A stretch of 64,000 bases of DNA from Chryseobacterium sp. H1D6B (GCF_029892445.1 NZ_JARXVJ010000001.1:248001-312000); one strand, 5' to 3'; positions 41,796 to 47,667 are shown, counted from the first letter of the stretch. The notes: a model not told the origin generated them from the letters alone. Numbers and translations are program-made.

Positions 41796-41825
41796 TTGTT
41801 GATTCTTCTTAAAGAACTATCTTTG
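41796..41825 (+). promoter_or_regulatory. Promoter of the cobalamin-riboswitch transcript
   Basis: Overlapping TTG words (41796-41801) and TATCTTTG (41818-41825) give a Bacteroidota -33/-7 pair. It would start transcription near 41832, right at the 5' edge of the riboswitch. Confidence 0.65.
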
Positions 41826-41830
41826 CAAAA

Positions 41831-41980
41831 ATTTTGGTTTCCAATATGTTGGAAATAAATAGGGAATTAGGCGAAAATCCTAAACTGTCCCCGCAACTGT
41901 AAATCGCAAACAAAATTTCTACAGCAAACCACTGTGAAAACGGGAAGGTGTAGAAAGTGAAAGTCAGGAGACCTGCCAAA
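41831..41980 (+). promoter_or_regulatory. Cobalamin (adenosylcobalamin-class) riboswitch
   Basis: The leader carries the conserved core of B12 riboswitches. GGGAATTAGGCGAAAATCC (41862-41880) is followed by CTGTCCCCGCAACTGTAAA (41885-41903), and the B12 box AGTCAGGAGACCTGCC is at 41962-41977. Order and spacing match the family. Binding of cobalamin should shut off the downstream receptor gene, probably by hiding its ribosome-binding region. A GGAGG at 42011-42015 lies 14 bases before the ATG at 42030 and could be the controlled element, though Bacteroidota rarely depend on such sequences. Confidence 0.93.
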
Positions 41981-42029
41981 ATTTTAAATCAAAAAAAATA
42001 TATTGCTTTCGGAGGAAAAGTAAAATAGT

Positions 42030-43853
42030 ATGAAAAAAACTTTAATACTGATTTTATCGTCTTACGGCTGTTTTCTTTTTGGACAAGAGAAAGGCATTGA
42101 TACTGTGTATGTTTTTGACAGTCAAATGAAGAAAGTAAAACTTTTTCATAAGGTTAATACCATAACACCTCAAGATGTTGAGAAAAATTCCACCAACCTT
42201 TCGGAACTTTTGCGTTACCAAACCCCTGTTTATATTAAAGAAAATGGGCGCGGAGCTGTTTCGTCACCTTCATTCCGGGGAACCAGTGCACAGCAGACCG
42301 CATTTGTCTGGAACGGGATCAATATCAATTCTAATTTCCTAGGACAGGGAGACATTAATAACATTCCTCTTTTTGGATATGACCAGATAGAAGTAAAGCC
42401 CGGAGGCGGAAGTGTAATTTATGGAAGCGGTGCTATTGGAGGAAGCATACACCTCAATAATGACTTAAGTTTTAATAAAGGTTTCAAAGGATCTTTATTT
42501 ACTGAAATCGCTTCTTTTGATACCTATAATAATTTTGCAAAGGCTTCTTACAGCAATGACAAATTCAGTTTCAATGTTTCAGGAAGCTATTCTATCAGCC
42601 AGAATGATTATGAGGTAGAAGAAAAAGATTATATTAACAGAAACGGCAGATATTATAATACTTCTTTTAATGCAGGAGCCGCTTATAAAATTGCTGACCA
42701 CCAAACAATATCCTGGCAGAGCCAGTTTTTCGATGCATCCCAGTACTATCCTATTTTTGTAGAAAACGGCAACAAAACAAAATATGGCGCTCAAAGCACC
42801 AGAAGTTTGATTTCCTGGGATATTAATACCAATAAGCTTTCCAATAGTCTGAAGGCAGCCTACGCAGAAGAAAACTTTCAATATTTTGGTGATATTAACA
42901 CTCCAAAAACAAGCGGCGGAACTGGAAAAAATTACATTTTCAAAAACGATTTCAACTATTTTATCCTCCCTAAATTAAATGTAAACGTTATCACTGAGTT
43001 TCAAGTAAACAAAGGAGAAGGATATAGTTCAGGAATTGAAAGCATCAGTAGAAATGTAGGTTCTTTAGCGGGTTTATTAAGATATTTTCCAACCAAAGAG
43101 CTGCGTTTTGAAGCAGGAATTAAGAAAGATTTTGTAGAAGATATCAGTTCACCGGTTTTATATTCTTTTTCAGGAAAATGGACTCCTCTGCAATGGTATA
43201 ATGTAGGTTTGAATTTTTCAAAAAACTTCAGATTTCCTTCCTTTAATGATCTTTACTGGAATCCCGGAGGAAATTTAGATCTAAAACCAGAAACTTCTAT
43301 TCAAGCTGATATGGATCACGAGTTTAAGTTTGGAGATTTCAAGCTGAATATAAGTCCTTATTATATGCGGATTTCAGATATGATCCGATGGCTGCCTACC
43401 CCTTATGGATATTGGGGAGCTCATAATACCAATAAAGTAGAATCTTACGGGCTGGAATCCCAATTAACTTATAATAAAGAGTTTAATAAAAAAAACAGTT
43501 TAAGACTGAATGTGGGATATTCTTTCTCAAAATCAATAGATCTAGAAACAAAAAATCAGCTGATGTATGTACCTATCCATAAAGTTTTCGGAAATGCAGA
43601 CTACCGGTATGATTTCTTTAAAATTTTTGTTCAGGGGATGTTCAACGGACTTACCTACACTACCTCTGATGAAAAGAGAAGTGATGCTTTAAATCCTTAT
43701 TTCGTTTTGAACGCTGGTATTTCTGCAACTGTTTTAAAGAAATACACTTTAGGGTTTAAGATGAACAATATTACAAATACTGTTTATGAAACAACCGCAT
43801 ATTATCCTTTACCAAAAAGAAATTACAGTATTTTTGCAACCATTAATTTTTAA
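42030..43853 (+). CDS. BtuB-like TonB-dependent cobalamin receptor
   Basis: A 607-residue outer-membrane TonB-dependent transporter, about the size of E. coli BtuB. The signal peptide covers residues 1-19 (ending LFGQ). The plug contains LLRYQTPVYIKENGRGAVSS, FRGTSAQQTAFVWNGININS (core FRGTSAQQTAFVWNG) and GSVIYGSGAIGGSIHL. A 22-strand-type barrel ends with YSIFATINF and a terminal Phe. Placement directly under a cobalamin riboswitch makes vitamin B12 or another corrinoid the likely substrate. A BtuG-like lipoprotein gene follows after 12 bases. No BtuCDF inner-membrane ABC genes are in this window. Confidence 0.93.
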   Translation: MKKTLILILSSYGCFLFGQEKGIDTVYVFDSQMKKVKLFHKVNTITPQDVEKNSTNLSELLRYQTPVYIKENGRGAVSSPSFRGTSAQQTAFVWNGININSNFLGQGDINNIPLFGYDQIEVKPGGGSVIYGSGAIGGSIHLNNDLSFNKGFKGSLFTEIASFDTYNNFAKASYSNDKFSFNVSGSYSISQNDYEVEEKDYINRNGRYYNTSFNAGAAYKIADHQTISWQSQFFDASQYYPIFVENGNKTKYGAQSTRSLISWDINTNKLSNSLKAAYAEENFQYFGDINTPKTSGGTGKNYIFKNDFNYFILPKLNVNVITEFQVNKGEGYSSGIESISRNVGSLAGLLRYFPTKELRFEAGIKKDFVEDISSPVLYSFSGKWTPLQWYNVGLNFSKNFRFPSFNDLYWNPGGNLDLKPETSIQADMDHEFKFGDFKLNISPYYMRISDMIRWLPTPYGYWGAHNTNKVESYGLESQLTYNKEFNKKNSLRLNVGYSFSKSIDLETKNQLMYVPIHKVFGNADYRYDFFKIFVQGMFNGLTYTTSDEKRSDALNPYFVLNAGISATVLKKYTLGFKMNNITNTVYETTAYYPLPKRNYSIFATINF

Positions 43854-43865
43854 ATTAAAAATATT

Positions 43866-44900
43866 ATGAAAATGAACAGACTTTTACAACTTTTCTTCGC
43901 CTTACTGTTATTATTCAATATTTCATGTAACAGCGACTCTGAATTCACTCAAGATGTATTTTATGGAAATGGAATCTTGATTGCTAATGAGGGTAACTTT
44001 GGGACACCTAATGCAGATGTAACTTTTCTATCAGGAGATCTTAACCTTAAACAAGATAATATTTTCTCAAGCAACAACAGCGGAGCAAATTTAGGTGACG
44101 TTCTACAAAGCATAACTTTCAACGGAGGGAGAGCTTTTCTTTTACTTAATAATTCTAATAAAATACAGGTAGTTGACCGTTATACCTTTAAAAAATTAGG
44201 GGAAATTACAGAACAGCTTAGTTCACCGCGTTATATGGCTATTGCCAACAATTTCATTTATGTAACCAATGATAAATACAACGGCGAAAAATATGTAACC
44301 GTTTATAATGCAGGAAGTTTTTCATTTGTAAAGAAAATTCCTTTCACTGACACCGCTGAAAGAATAGTGGAAGCAGGAGGAAATGTTTTCGTACAGAATG
44401 CTTCTTTCGGTTTTGGAAACAAAATAACTTCTATTAACACTTCAACCAATTCGATTCTGTCTGTAATTACGCTTCCCAACGGAAATATTAATAAAACAAT
44501 TTCAAGCAATTCAAATGTATATACAATTGCTGCAGGAACAGCAGATTCTTACATTTATCAGATTTCAAACGCTGGAAACATTGTAAAGACTACTACTTTA
44601 ACAGGTATCACAAACGCTACCAATCTTGAAATTTATAATGGAAAATACTATTTCAGCTCAGGAAATAATGTTTATGCAATGGATATGAATGCAACAGCAG
44701 TTCCAACAACTCCATTGTTTACTGTTACTGCAAATTCGTATTCTACTTTATATGGATTCAATATTGTAAACGGATTGATCTTTACGTCTGATGCTAACGG
44801 ATTTACTCAAGACAGTAAAATCACAGTATATTCAGCTGCAGGGGCTTTAATTAAGACTTTTACTGCCGGGAAAAGTTCAAACGGATTCTATCAGAATTAA
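43866..44900 (+). CDS. BtuG-like DUF5074 beta-propeller lipoprotein
   Basis: A 344-residue surface lipoprotein; the signal ends at NISC. The family's opening motif GILIANEGNFGTPNADVTFL (near residues 38-57) marks a DUF5074/YncE-like beta-propeller. The repeats continue with short strands (IQVVDRYTFKKLGEI, YVTVYNAGSFSFVKKI, ITSINTSTNSILSVI). In Bacteroides, BtuG is such a propeller that binds cobalamin with high affinity over the BtuB channel. Here the gene is directly behind a BtuB-like gene under a B12 riboswitch. The same role is therefore a strong inference, though ligand contacts cannot be checked. A terminator follows at 44961. Confidence 0.85.
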   Translation: MKMNRLLQLFFALLLLFNISCNSDSEFTQDVFYGNGILIANEGNFGTPNADVTFLSGDLNLKQDNIFSSNNSGANLGDVLQSITFNGGRAFLLLNNSNKIQVVDRYTFKKLGEITEQLSSPRYMAIANNFIYVTNDKYNGEKYVTVYNAGSFSFVKKIPFTDTAERIVEAGGNVFVQNASFGFGNKITSINTSTNSILSVITLPNGNINKTISSNSNVYTIAAGTADSYIYQISNAGNIVKTTTLTGITNATNLEIYNGKYYFSSGNNVYAMDMNATAVPTTPLFTVTANSYSTLYGFNIVNGLIFTSDANGFTQDSKITVYSAAGALIKTFTAGKSSNGFYQN

Positions 44901-44960
44901 GAAATTTATACTTCGGTATATCTATAAATTTTATTTTTTTTTCATCATTTGTGTTTTTAT

Positions 44961-44987
44961 CAGGGCTGTTTCTTTGAAACAGCCCTG
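44961..44987. terminator. Bidirectional terminator between the B12 unit and the CCA-adding enzyme
   Basis: CAGGGCTGTTTC (44961-44972) and GAAACAGCCCTG (44976-44987) make a perfect 12-bp stem with a TTT loop, with T-rich flanks on both sides. It separates the convergent btuG-like and CCA-enzyme genes. Confidence 0.85.
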
Positions 44988-45007
44988 ATTTATTTTACAA
45001 GATGAAC

Positions 45008-47162: not shown

Positions 47163-47585
47163 TCAAAAATTATATTTTTCAATAAATTCCTGATATTCCA
47201 CTGTAAAAGTTTTCTTTTGATGATGCTTCTCCTGGTTTTTAATATAGTTTCTTACCGTATCTATCTTCGATTCTGAAACTGAAACCGCAAGATATTCATC
47301 CTGCCAGGAAAATTTTTCAGTTGTCAATTGGTTTTTATTGATCCAATGTGAAGATTCACCTTTTAATAATTGTGCAATTTTTTCTATGTTCTGCCCAGAA
47401 CCTAATGAAATCAAACAATGACAATGATCTGAATAACCATTCACCATATCTAAGTAAATATCTTTTTGCGAAGCATTTTCTTTAATATGTTTCCAAACTT
47501 TTATTCTTAGATCAGGTGTATTTAAGTAGGGATTTCTATTTTTTGTGGAGAAAACGACGTGGATATAAATTTTGATAAAGGACAT
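47163..47585 (-). CDS. REP-associated tyrosine transposase (RAYT, IS200/IS605 Y1 family)
   Basis: A 140-residue single-stranded DNA transposase/nuclease from the ATG at 47585 (MSFIKIYIHVVFSTKNRNPYL); a longer frame adds twelve unrelated residues. The Y1 fold shows VFSTKNR, the metal-binding HUH pair as DHCHCL (His54, Cys55, His56), and the catalytic tyrosine in VRNYIKNQEKHH (Tyr114). ILAN-type elements also show SWQDEYLAVSVS, a conserved RAYT segment (here WQDEYLAVSVS). The gene is surrounded by palindromic repeats rather than true insertion-sequence ends. This is the RAYT arrangement, in which a domesticated transposase maintains REP sequences. It is intact. Confidence 0.9.
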   Translation of the reverse strand: MSFIKIYIHVVFSTKNRNPYLNTPDLRIKVWKHIKENASQKDIYLDMVNGYSDHCHCLISLGSGQNIEKIAQLLKGESSHWINKNQLTTEKFSWQDEYLAVSVSESKIDTVRNYIKNQEKHHQKKTFTVEYQEFIEKYNF

Positions 47586-47667
47586 TGTGTTTTTTATCAA
47601 AAATAAGAATTTCTTCATCAAATTAAGTTTTGGCTGAAGCCAATTTGAAATTATGATAATATAAAAA

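Follow-up and report, generated by a model that had tools for sequence, protein, structure and literature searches.

A cobalamin riboswitch-led BtuB-BtuG pair in Chryseobacterium, a divergent relative of the Bacteroides corrinoid-uptake systems

Introduction

Gut Bacteroides capture vitamin B12 with a TonB-dependent receptor, BtuB, that is capped by a surface propeller lipoprotein, BtuG; does the same strategy operate in environmental Flavobacteriia? The question is raised by positions 41796-44900 of a 64,000-nucleotide stretch of the Chryseobacterium sp. H1D6B genome (GCF_029892445.1, NZ_JARXVJ010000001.1:248001-312000; the whole stretch is hereafter the window), where a cobalamin riboswitch precedes genes for a BtuB-type receptor and a BtuG-type lipoprotein. 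We conclude that this unit is very probably a B12-repressed corrinoid-uptake operon encoding a BtuB-BtuG capture pair, and that the system belongs with the BtuBG systems known from Bacteroides, as a new and somewhat divergent member. According to Wexler et al. 2018, who searched human-gut genomes, btuG is exclusive to the Bacteroidetes phylum (PMC6143338), so that finding it in Flavobacteriia as well is no great surprise.

Results and discussion

A riboswitch-led receptor-lipoprotein operon

The Rfam covariance model RF00174 recovers a full-length cobalamin riboswitch aptamer (model positions 1-189; 105.5 bits against a gathering threshold of 31.5, E = 2.1e-25), the sole Rfam match in the 64-kb window, and a promoter reading TTG-N19-TATCTTTG stands at its upstream edge, bearing out the riboswitch with promoter described in the first-pass annotation. 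The consensus TTG-N-TAnnTTTG is the usual promoter form in Bacteroidota (Bacteroides and Flavobacterium). The TAnnTTTG (-7) box lies at most 1 nt from the aptamer start in all 15 loci compared in the genus (chance expectation ~0.003 per locus), and the complete promoter, TTG-N17-21-TAnnTTTG, is present in 11 of them. The -7 box shares bases with the beginning of the aptamer model, so that transcription should start at the first helix, P1, or slightly within it. The receptor and lipoprotein genes are separated by 12 bp, and a terminator stem at 44959-44989 completes the operon; the coordinates given in the first-pass annotation are correct.

Both partners point to the same known complex. The receptor, recognized from the outset as BtuB-like, carries Plug (PF07715) and TonB barrel (PF00593) Pfam domains; its best match in the Protein Data Bank (PDB) is BtuB2 (8bmx_C, 3.4e-35), followed by BtuB3 (8p97/8p98) and then BtuB1, and its top NCBIfam family is TIGR01779 TonB-B12 (100.6 bits, below the equivalog cut-off of 599.7). 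The lipoprotein best matches BtuG2 from the same entry, the BtuB2-BtuG2 complex (8bmx_D, 6.4e-20), with nine BtuG-type sequences scoring between 6e-20 and 1.4e-17. In Bacteroides, B12 is held to be driven off BtuG by extracellular loop 8 (EL8) of the receptor, whose aromatic residue is Tyr538 in BtuB3, a Phe in BtuB2 and a Trp in BtuB1 (PMC10404256). The window receptor has ISDMIRWLPTPYGYWGAHN where BtuB3 has INDWIIWLPTSKGFYSPVN, keeping the EL8 motif D-x-I-x-W-L-P-T-x-x-G-aromatic-aromatic and placing a Trp in the Tyr538 column; most relatives in the alignment likewise keep the Trp, Pro and aromatic positions.

A predicted BtuG-type propeller

In the lipoprotein, Cys21 comes after a hydrophobic signal segment, with CNSDSE following the Cys, and lipidation is expected; this Cys is present in 33 of 37 aligned rows. 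An AlphaFold (AF2) model built from 32 homologues reached a pLDDT of 91.9. When the model was compared with known structures by VIA-align, the top 11 entries were all BtuG (Z 34.0-35.0, rmsd 2.6-2.9 over 297-305 residues), followed by BtuK1 (Z 28.1) and generic propellers (Z ≤ 27.4); Foldseek likewise ranked BtuG entries first. The comparison with Bacteroides BtuG proposed in the first-pass annotation therefore comes out in favour of a BtuG-type fold. That annotation had called the protein a DUF5074 propeller lipoprotein, and the propeller and the lipoprotein stand, supported by the BtuG match, the model and Cys21; the DUF5074 label suits the family but is inexact for the window protein, which fails to match Pfam DUF5074 (PF16819) even at E = 10. 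As the family is matched by BtuG2 (73.9 bits) and by a 75%-identical orthologue from the genus (40.4 bits), the window protein is a divergent relative and not a listed member. In an alignment of the window lipoprotein with BtuG2 and 35 homologues, which is gapped in blade 5, the residues invariant across the homologues and BtuG2 include N54, G56, N84, G89, Q93 and R133 (BtuG2 numbering); the ligand-pocket residue Y316, kept in the window protein, shows almost no variation.

Conservation of the pair

Among 59 genomes of the genus and order, 52 contain a homologue of the lipoprotein and 54 a cobalamin riboswitch, and btuB adjoins btuG in nearly all of the 40 regions compared. All 15 genus loci of the window type that we examined have the arrangement riboswitch-btuB-btuG. 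Elsewhere in the order, 16 of the sampled genomes contain a homologue, and 14 of these share the arrangement; outside the genus, the homologue tracks the cobalamin riboswitch (16/16 versus 2/7, Fisher p = 0.0006). Named relatives are Chryseobacterium species (59-75% identity), Kaistella and Flavobacterium humi. In a phylum-wide sample, the profile matched 89 of 148 genomes with strengths from 1e-131 down to 1e-4, a range the lower part of which will include other propellers. In one distant genome (G098, locus L161 4042-7487), the gene order is reversed, with the riboswitch followed by BtuG and then BtuB.

The sequence, the predicted structure, the order of the genes, their link to a riboswitch and the breadth of conservation all agree on a BtuB-BtuG corrinoid capture pair in Flavobacteriia, supporting the earlier suggestion that the strategy extends to environmental members of this class. 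Lid-assisted B12 capture is very probably not confined to the gut, the unit being kept across Chryseobacterium and recurring in most of the sampled families of the order. The closest known systems are BtuB2-BtuG2 and BtuB3-BtuG3 of B. thetaiotaomicron (PDB 8bmx, 8p97/8p98, 8okv; PMC10404256, PMC6143338), which give the best sequence match for both partners as well as the best fold match, and with which the window operon shares riboswitch control, adjacent btuB and btuG, a propeller lipoprotein (here predicted to be seven-bladed), propeller motifs and the EL8 motif with its aromatic. Unlike these systems, it has no btuF/C/D or other corrinoid genes alongside, and it has a hairpin before the ATG that is conserved throughout the genus. 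The receptor of E. coli is likewise TonB-dependent, of the B12 type and under a cobalamin riboswitch, but it works without a lipoprotein lid (PMC6143338), and it does not come up when the window receptor is searched against PDB at E 0.001.

Control of btuB

The genus-wide hairpin, P13, is the sole hairpin between the aptamer and the ATG, and TTGCTTTCGGAGGAA, which forms part of it, is identical in all 15 genus loci. On its own P13 is weak (-4 kcal/mol, z -2.3), but its loop (L13), CGGAGGA, can pair with the aptamer loop L5, UCCCCG, with one A bulged. The letters of L5 and L13 co-vary in paralogues, for example as UCGCG/CGCGA at a riboswitch preceding a thioesterase gene (see below); in a shuffle test with hand-picked loops of 15 riboswitches, 862 of 20000 shuffles were equally good, a result that is suggestive only. 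Our preferred model is that btuB is most likely controlled at the level of translation via the L5-L13 contact. Many cobalamin riboswitches are generally known to terminate transcription instead, yet we regard this as improbable here, given that no T-run terminator lies between the window aptamer and the ATG and that the one intervening hairpin is conserved and ends 6 nt from the start codon.

Under translational control, the operon would work as follows. When corrinoid is scarce, the riboswitch would leave the start site of btuB accessible, allowing both proteins to be produced; bound corrinoid would close the aptamer, and the L5-L13 contact with the hairpin before the ATG would most likely block btuB translation. 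The lipoprotein, exported to the cell surface, would cap the BtuB barrel as a lid, which would close once its inner face had bound corrinoid; EL8 of BtuB would then displace the ligand into the barrel, and TonB would drive its import.

Ligand and affinity

Several observations weigh against this account of the operon. The lipoprotein is only ~25% identical to BtuG2; W194 and Y335 of BtuG2 are Phe in it, and the blade-5 loops that bear Y239 and W272 of BtuG2 are absent, as judged from the gapped alignment. The mature protein has no Trp and a net charge of -2, compared with about -19 for BtuG2, and lipoproteins across the genus share these traits (0-1 Trp, net -1 to -6). Beyond the lid, no inner-membrane B12 importer could be assigned among three BtuF candidates in the genome, and the proposed L5-L13 contact draws on hand-chosen loops and a weak shuffle test.

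Two alternatives have to be considered. The pair might import another ligand, such as haem, a siderophore or a glycan, beside a B12 riboswitch that is coincidental or was adopted. TonB receptors with surface-lipoprotein caps are common in Bacteroidota, and the window receptor also obtains scores with NCBIfam families for receptors of haem and siderophores; in Bacteroides, receptors with lipoprotein caps serve for glycans and iron-siderophores (PMC12578637). We nevertheless consider this explanation very improbable, because TonB-B12 is the top NCBIfam family, B12 receptors and B12-binding lids lead the PDB matches by a wide margin, and the linkage to the riboswitch has been maintained across many families.

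The differences in the lid bear on a second alternative, that the system does serve corrinoids but with a lid of lower affinity or a modified binding mode (for instance, for another corrinoid), high-affinity capture being left to a BtuB1-type operon elsewhere in the genome. BtuG2 is modelled as capturing B12 by long-range electrostatics into an aromatic-lined pocket (PMC10404256); with its near-neutral charge and few Trp, the Chryseobacterium lid may not use this mode of capture, and with the blade-5 ligand loops missing as well, femtomolar affinity should not be assumed. The loss of these loops, of all Trp and of most negative charge, the sharing of the residue and charge differences by the whole genus, and the presence of a complete BtuB1-BtuG-BtuH-BtuK-type operon with a riboswitch of its own all speak for this alternative; homologues in other families mostly have net charges of -8 to -32. 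However, the polar residues of the first blades are the best conserved part of the protein, all 13 hydrogen bonds of BtuG2 to B12 come from blades 1-4 (PMC10404256), and several members of the genus (e.g. G008, G009 and G011) have the window-type pair with no BtuG1-type copy detected. We therefore hold a lower-affinity or modified lid to be a serious but minority possibility, and a BtuBG-type capture pair remains our reading of the operon. The Chryseobacterium BtuG is without the features credited with capture in Bacteroides (Trp residues, the blade-5 loops and negative charge) and so lends itself to testing, by natural variation, which features of BtuG count.

The wider cobalamin regulon

The window operon had been described as a stand-alone unit, which is accurate for its surroundings, where the window translations reveal no adjacent corrinoid genes, but not for the cell. 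Family searches, on which all genome-wide statements here are based, identified five cobalamin riboswitches in the Chryseobacterium genome, which lead the window operon, metE (L009), a YciA-type 4HBT acyl-CoA thioesterase gene (L006), a gene for an exported protein (L007) and a second corrinoid operon (L008) located ~1.55 Mb from the window locus (Table 1). The genome encodes the B12-linked proteins MetH, methylmalonyl-CoA mutase, IcmF and a PduO-type adenosyltransferase, and neither CbiC nor CobS was found in it, so that the strain is apparently a B12 user and non-producer. Of the BtuF candidates, one adjoins an HmuY-like protein and a BtuC/FecC-type permease and looks like haem uptake, and a second could not be assigned; the third, a protein of 243 aa in which no signal peptide is apparent, gives a score as a 'helical backbone metal receptor'.

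The L008 operon resembles locus 1 of B. thetaiotaomicron (BtuK1/K2-BtuH1-BtuB1-BtuGH-BtuJ1; PMC12751083). Its receptor is BtuB1-like (4e-129 to BtuB1), its BtuG-like protein matches DUF5074 and its BtuH-like protein matches the H-domain of BtuG1 (2e-68) and BtuH2 (5e-43). Unlike in locus 1, BtuG and BtuH are separate genes, and the BtuK1-like propeller is a protein of 760 aa with the tail of a type IX secretion system (T9SS) substrate and an N-terminal domain outside Pfam.

We find the newer biology in this wider regulon rather than in the window operon. The L007 protein seems to be frameshifted ahead of its T9SS tail in the Chryseobacterium genome; intact relatives of ~370 aa carry the tail and are encoded directly behind a riboswitch. 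Proteins of this type contain two tandem repeats (hhalign 98%, E 5.5e-15), and one further copy of the repeat lies N-terminally in the 760-aa BtuK-like protein of L008. Sequence searches against PDB and Pfam returned no match. An AlphaFold model reached moderate quality (mean pLDDT 71; 47-71 across five models), and its residues 172-276 match the beta-domain that binds cobalamin in transcobalamin, intrinsic factor and haptocorrin: entries of this domain take the first 14 places (Z 11.3-12.4, rmsd 2.2-2.4, ~95 residues), ahead of the next entry at Z 10.1, whereas Foldseek alone places them lower, with E about 0.01. The L007-type domain thus appears to resemble, in predicted fold only, the transcobalamin beta-domain, a fold found in animal intrinsic factor.

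A T9SS-type sorting domain recurs on the lid itself. Several families have, next to a riboswitch-linked BtuB, a BtuG that lacks a lipobox and ends in such a domain (loci L067, L150-L155, L157, L158, L055-L057 and L149 4093-5379; tails tested with Pfam for L055 and L067 and judged by reading the C-termini for the others), and in Flavobacterium humi lipoprotein and T9SS copies of BtuG share one operon. Within Chryseobacterium, a T9SS form groups as the sister of the lipoprotein form (97/82 support), a Flavobacterium lipoprotein falling outside both, and the anchor has therefore probably been exchanged at least once.

The link between riboswitch and thioesterase recurs in at least 12 other genomes of the genus (Chryseobacterium group). 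The enzyme might relieve a build-up of methylmalonyl- or propionyl-CoA under B12 shortage. Many thioesterase leaders contain an inverted repeat, CAGGAA...TTCCTG, followed by a T-rich stretch, possibly a terminator; short upstream open reading frames (ORFs) from riboswitch to thioesterase were dropped as not conserved.

Taken together, the transcobalamin-like protein, the T9SS-tailed BtuG and the thioesterase point to secreted corrinoid carriers, of which no description was found in searchable papers. A literature search returned no direct precedent for BtuG in Flavobacteria, for B12 propellers with T9SS tails, for a thioesterase under a cobalamin riboswitch or for bacterial transcobalamin-like proteins, which is not proof of absence. 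A joint reading of the regulon, which we offer tentatively and think rather doubtful as a whole, is that a T9SS-exported carrier with two transcobalamin beta-like domains would hand corrinoid to lidded receptors, the lid being anchored by lipid or T9SS according to lineage, while the B12-repressed thioesterase, under another of the five riboswitches, would ease acyl-CoA build-up when the mutases are without cofactor.

Table 1. Coordinates of the features discussed (window positions unless a locus label is given)
Feature	Coordinates	Strand	Basis or details
Bacteroidota-type promoter	41796..41825	+	TTG 41796-41798, 19-bp spacer, TATCTTTG 41818-41825; read from sequence
Cobalamin riboswitch aptamer (RF00174)	41818..41994	+	Rfam; riboswitches at the same place in relatives
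Aptamer loop L5	41888..41893	+	UCCCCG; proposed partner of L13
Expression-platform hairpin P13	42003..42023	+	UUGCUUU / loop CGGAGGA / AAAGUAA
btuB-type TonB-dependent corrinoid receptor	42030..43853	+	607 aa; PF07715 + PF00593
Extracellular loop EL8 region	43359..43439	+	codons 444-470 (ISDMIRWLPTPYGYWGAHN); alignment to BtuB2/BtuB3 and relatives
btuG-type lipoprotein	43866..44900	+	344 aa, predicted seven-bladed beta-propeller; BtuG2 match, AlphaFold model
Intrinsic terminator	44959..44999	+	14-bp perfect stem 44959-44972/44976-44989, then T-rich; -24.3 kcal/mol, z -7.6
Cobalamin riboswitch-thioesterase	L006 2320-2996		112 bits, best in genome; YciA-like 4HBT directly downstream; relatives L083-L094
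Exported riboswitch-linked protein	L007 10454-11257 (genome C1:2966456-2967256)	-	intact relatives L095-L098
Second corrinoid operon	L008 2405-9379 (genome C1:1839404-1846378)		riboswitch, BtuB1-, BtuG-, BtuH- and BtuK1-like genes

Surroundings and minor observations

By their translations, the neighbours of the window operon are a cytidine-deaminase-like gene upstream of the riboswitch and, downstream of the lipoprotein gene on the opposite strand, a tRNA-nucleotidyltransferase-like gene; an ORF at 47163-47621 on the minus strand reads like an IS200/REP-associated transposase. Elsewhere in the order, in a different family, genes that by reading resemble a class I ribonucleotide reductase follow a cobalamin riboswitch (L100; G038 C1:25204-27201).

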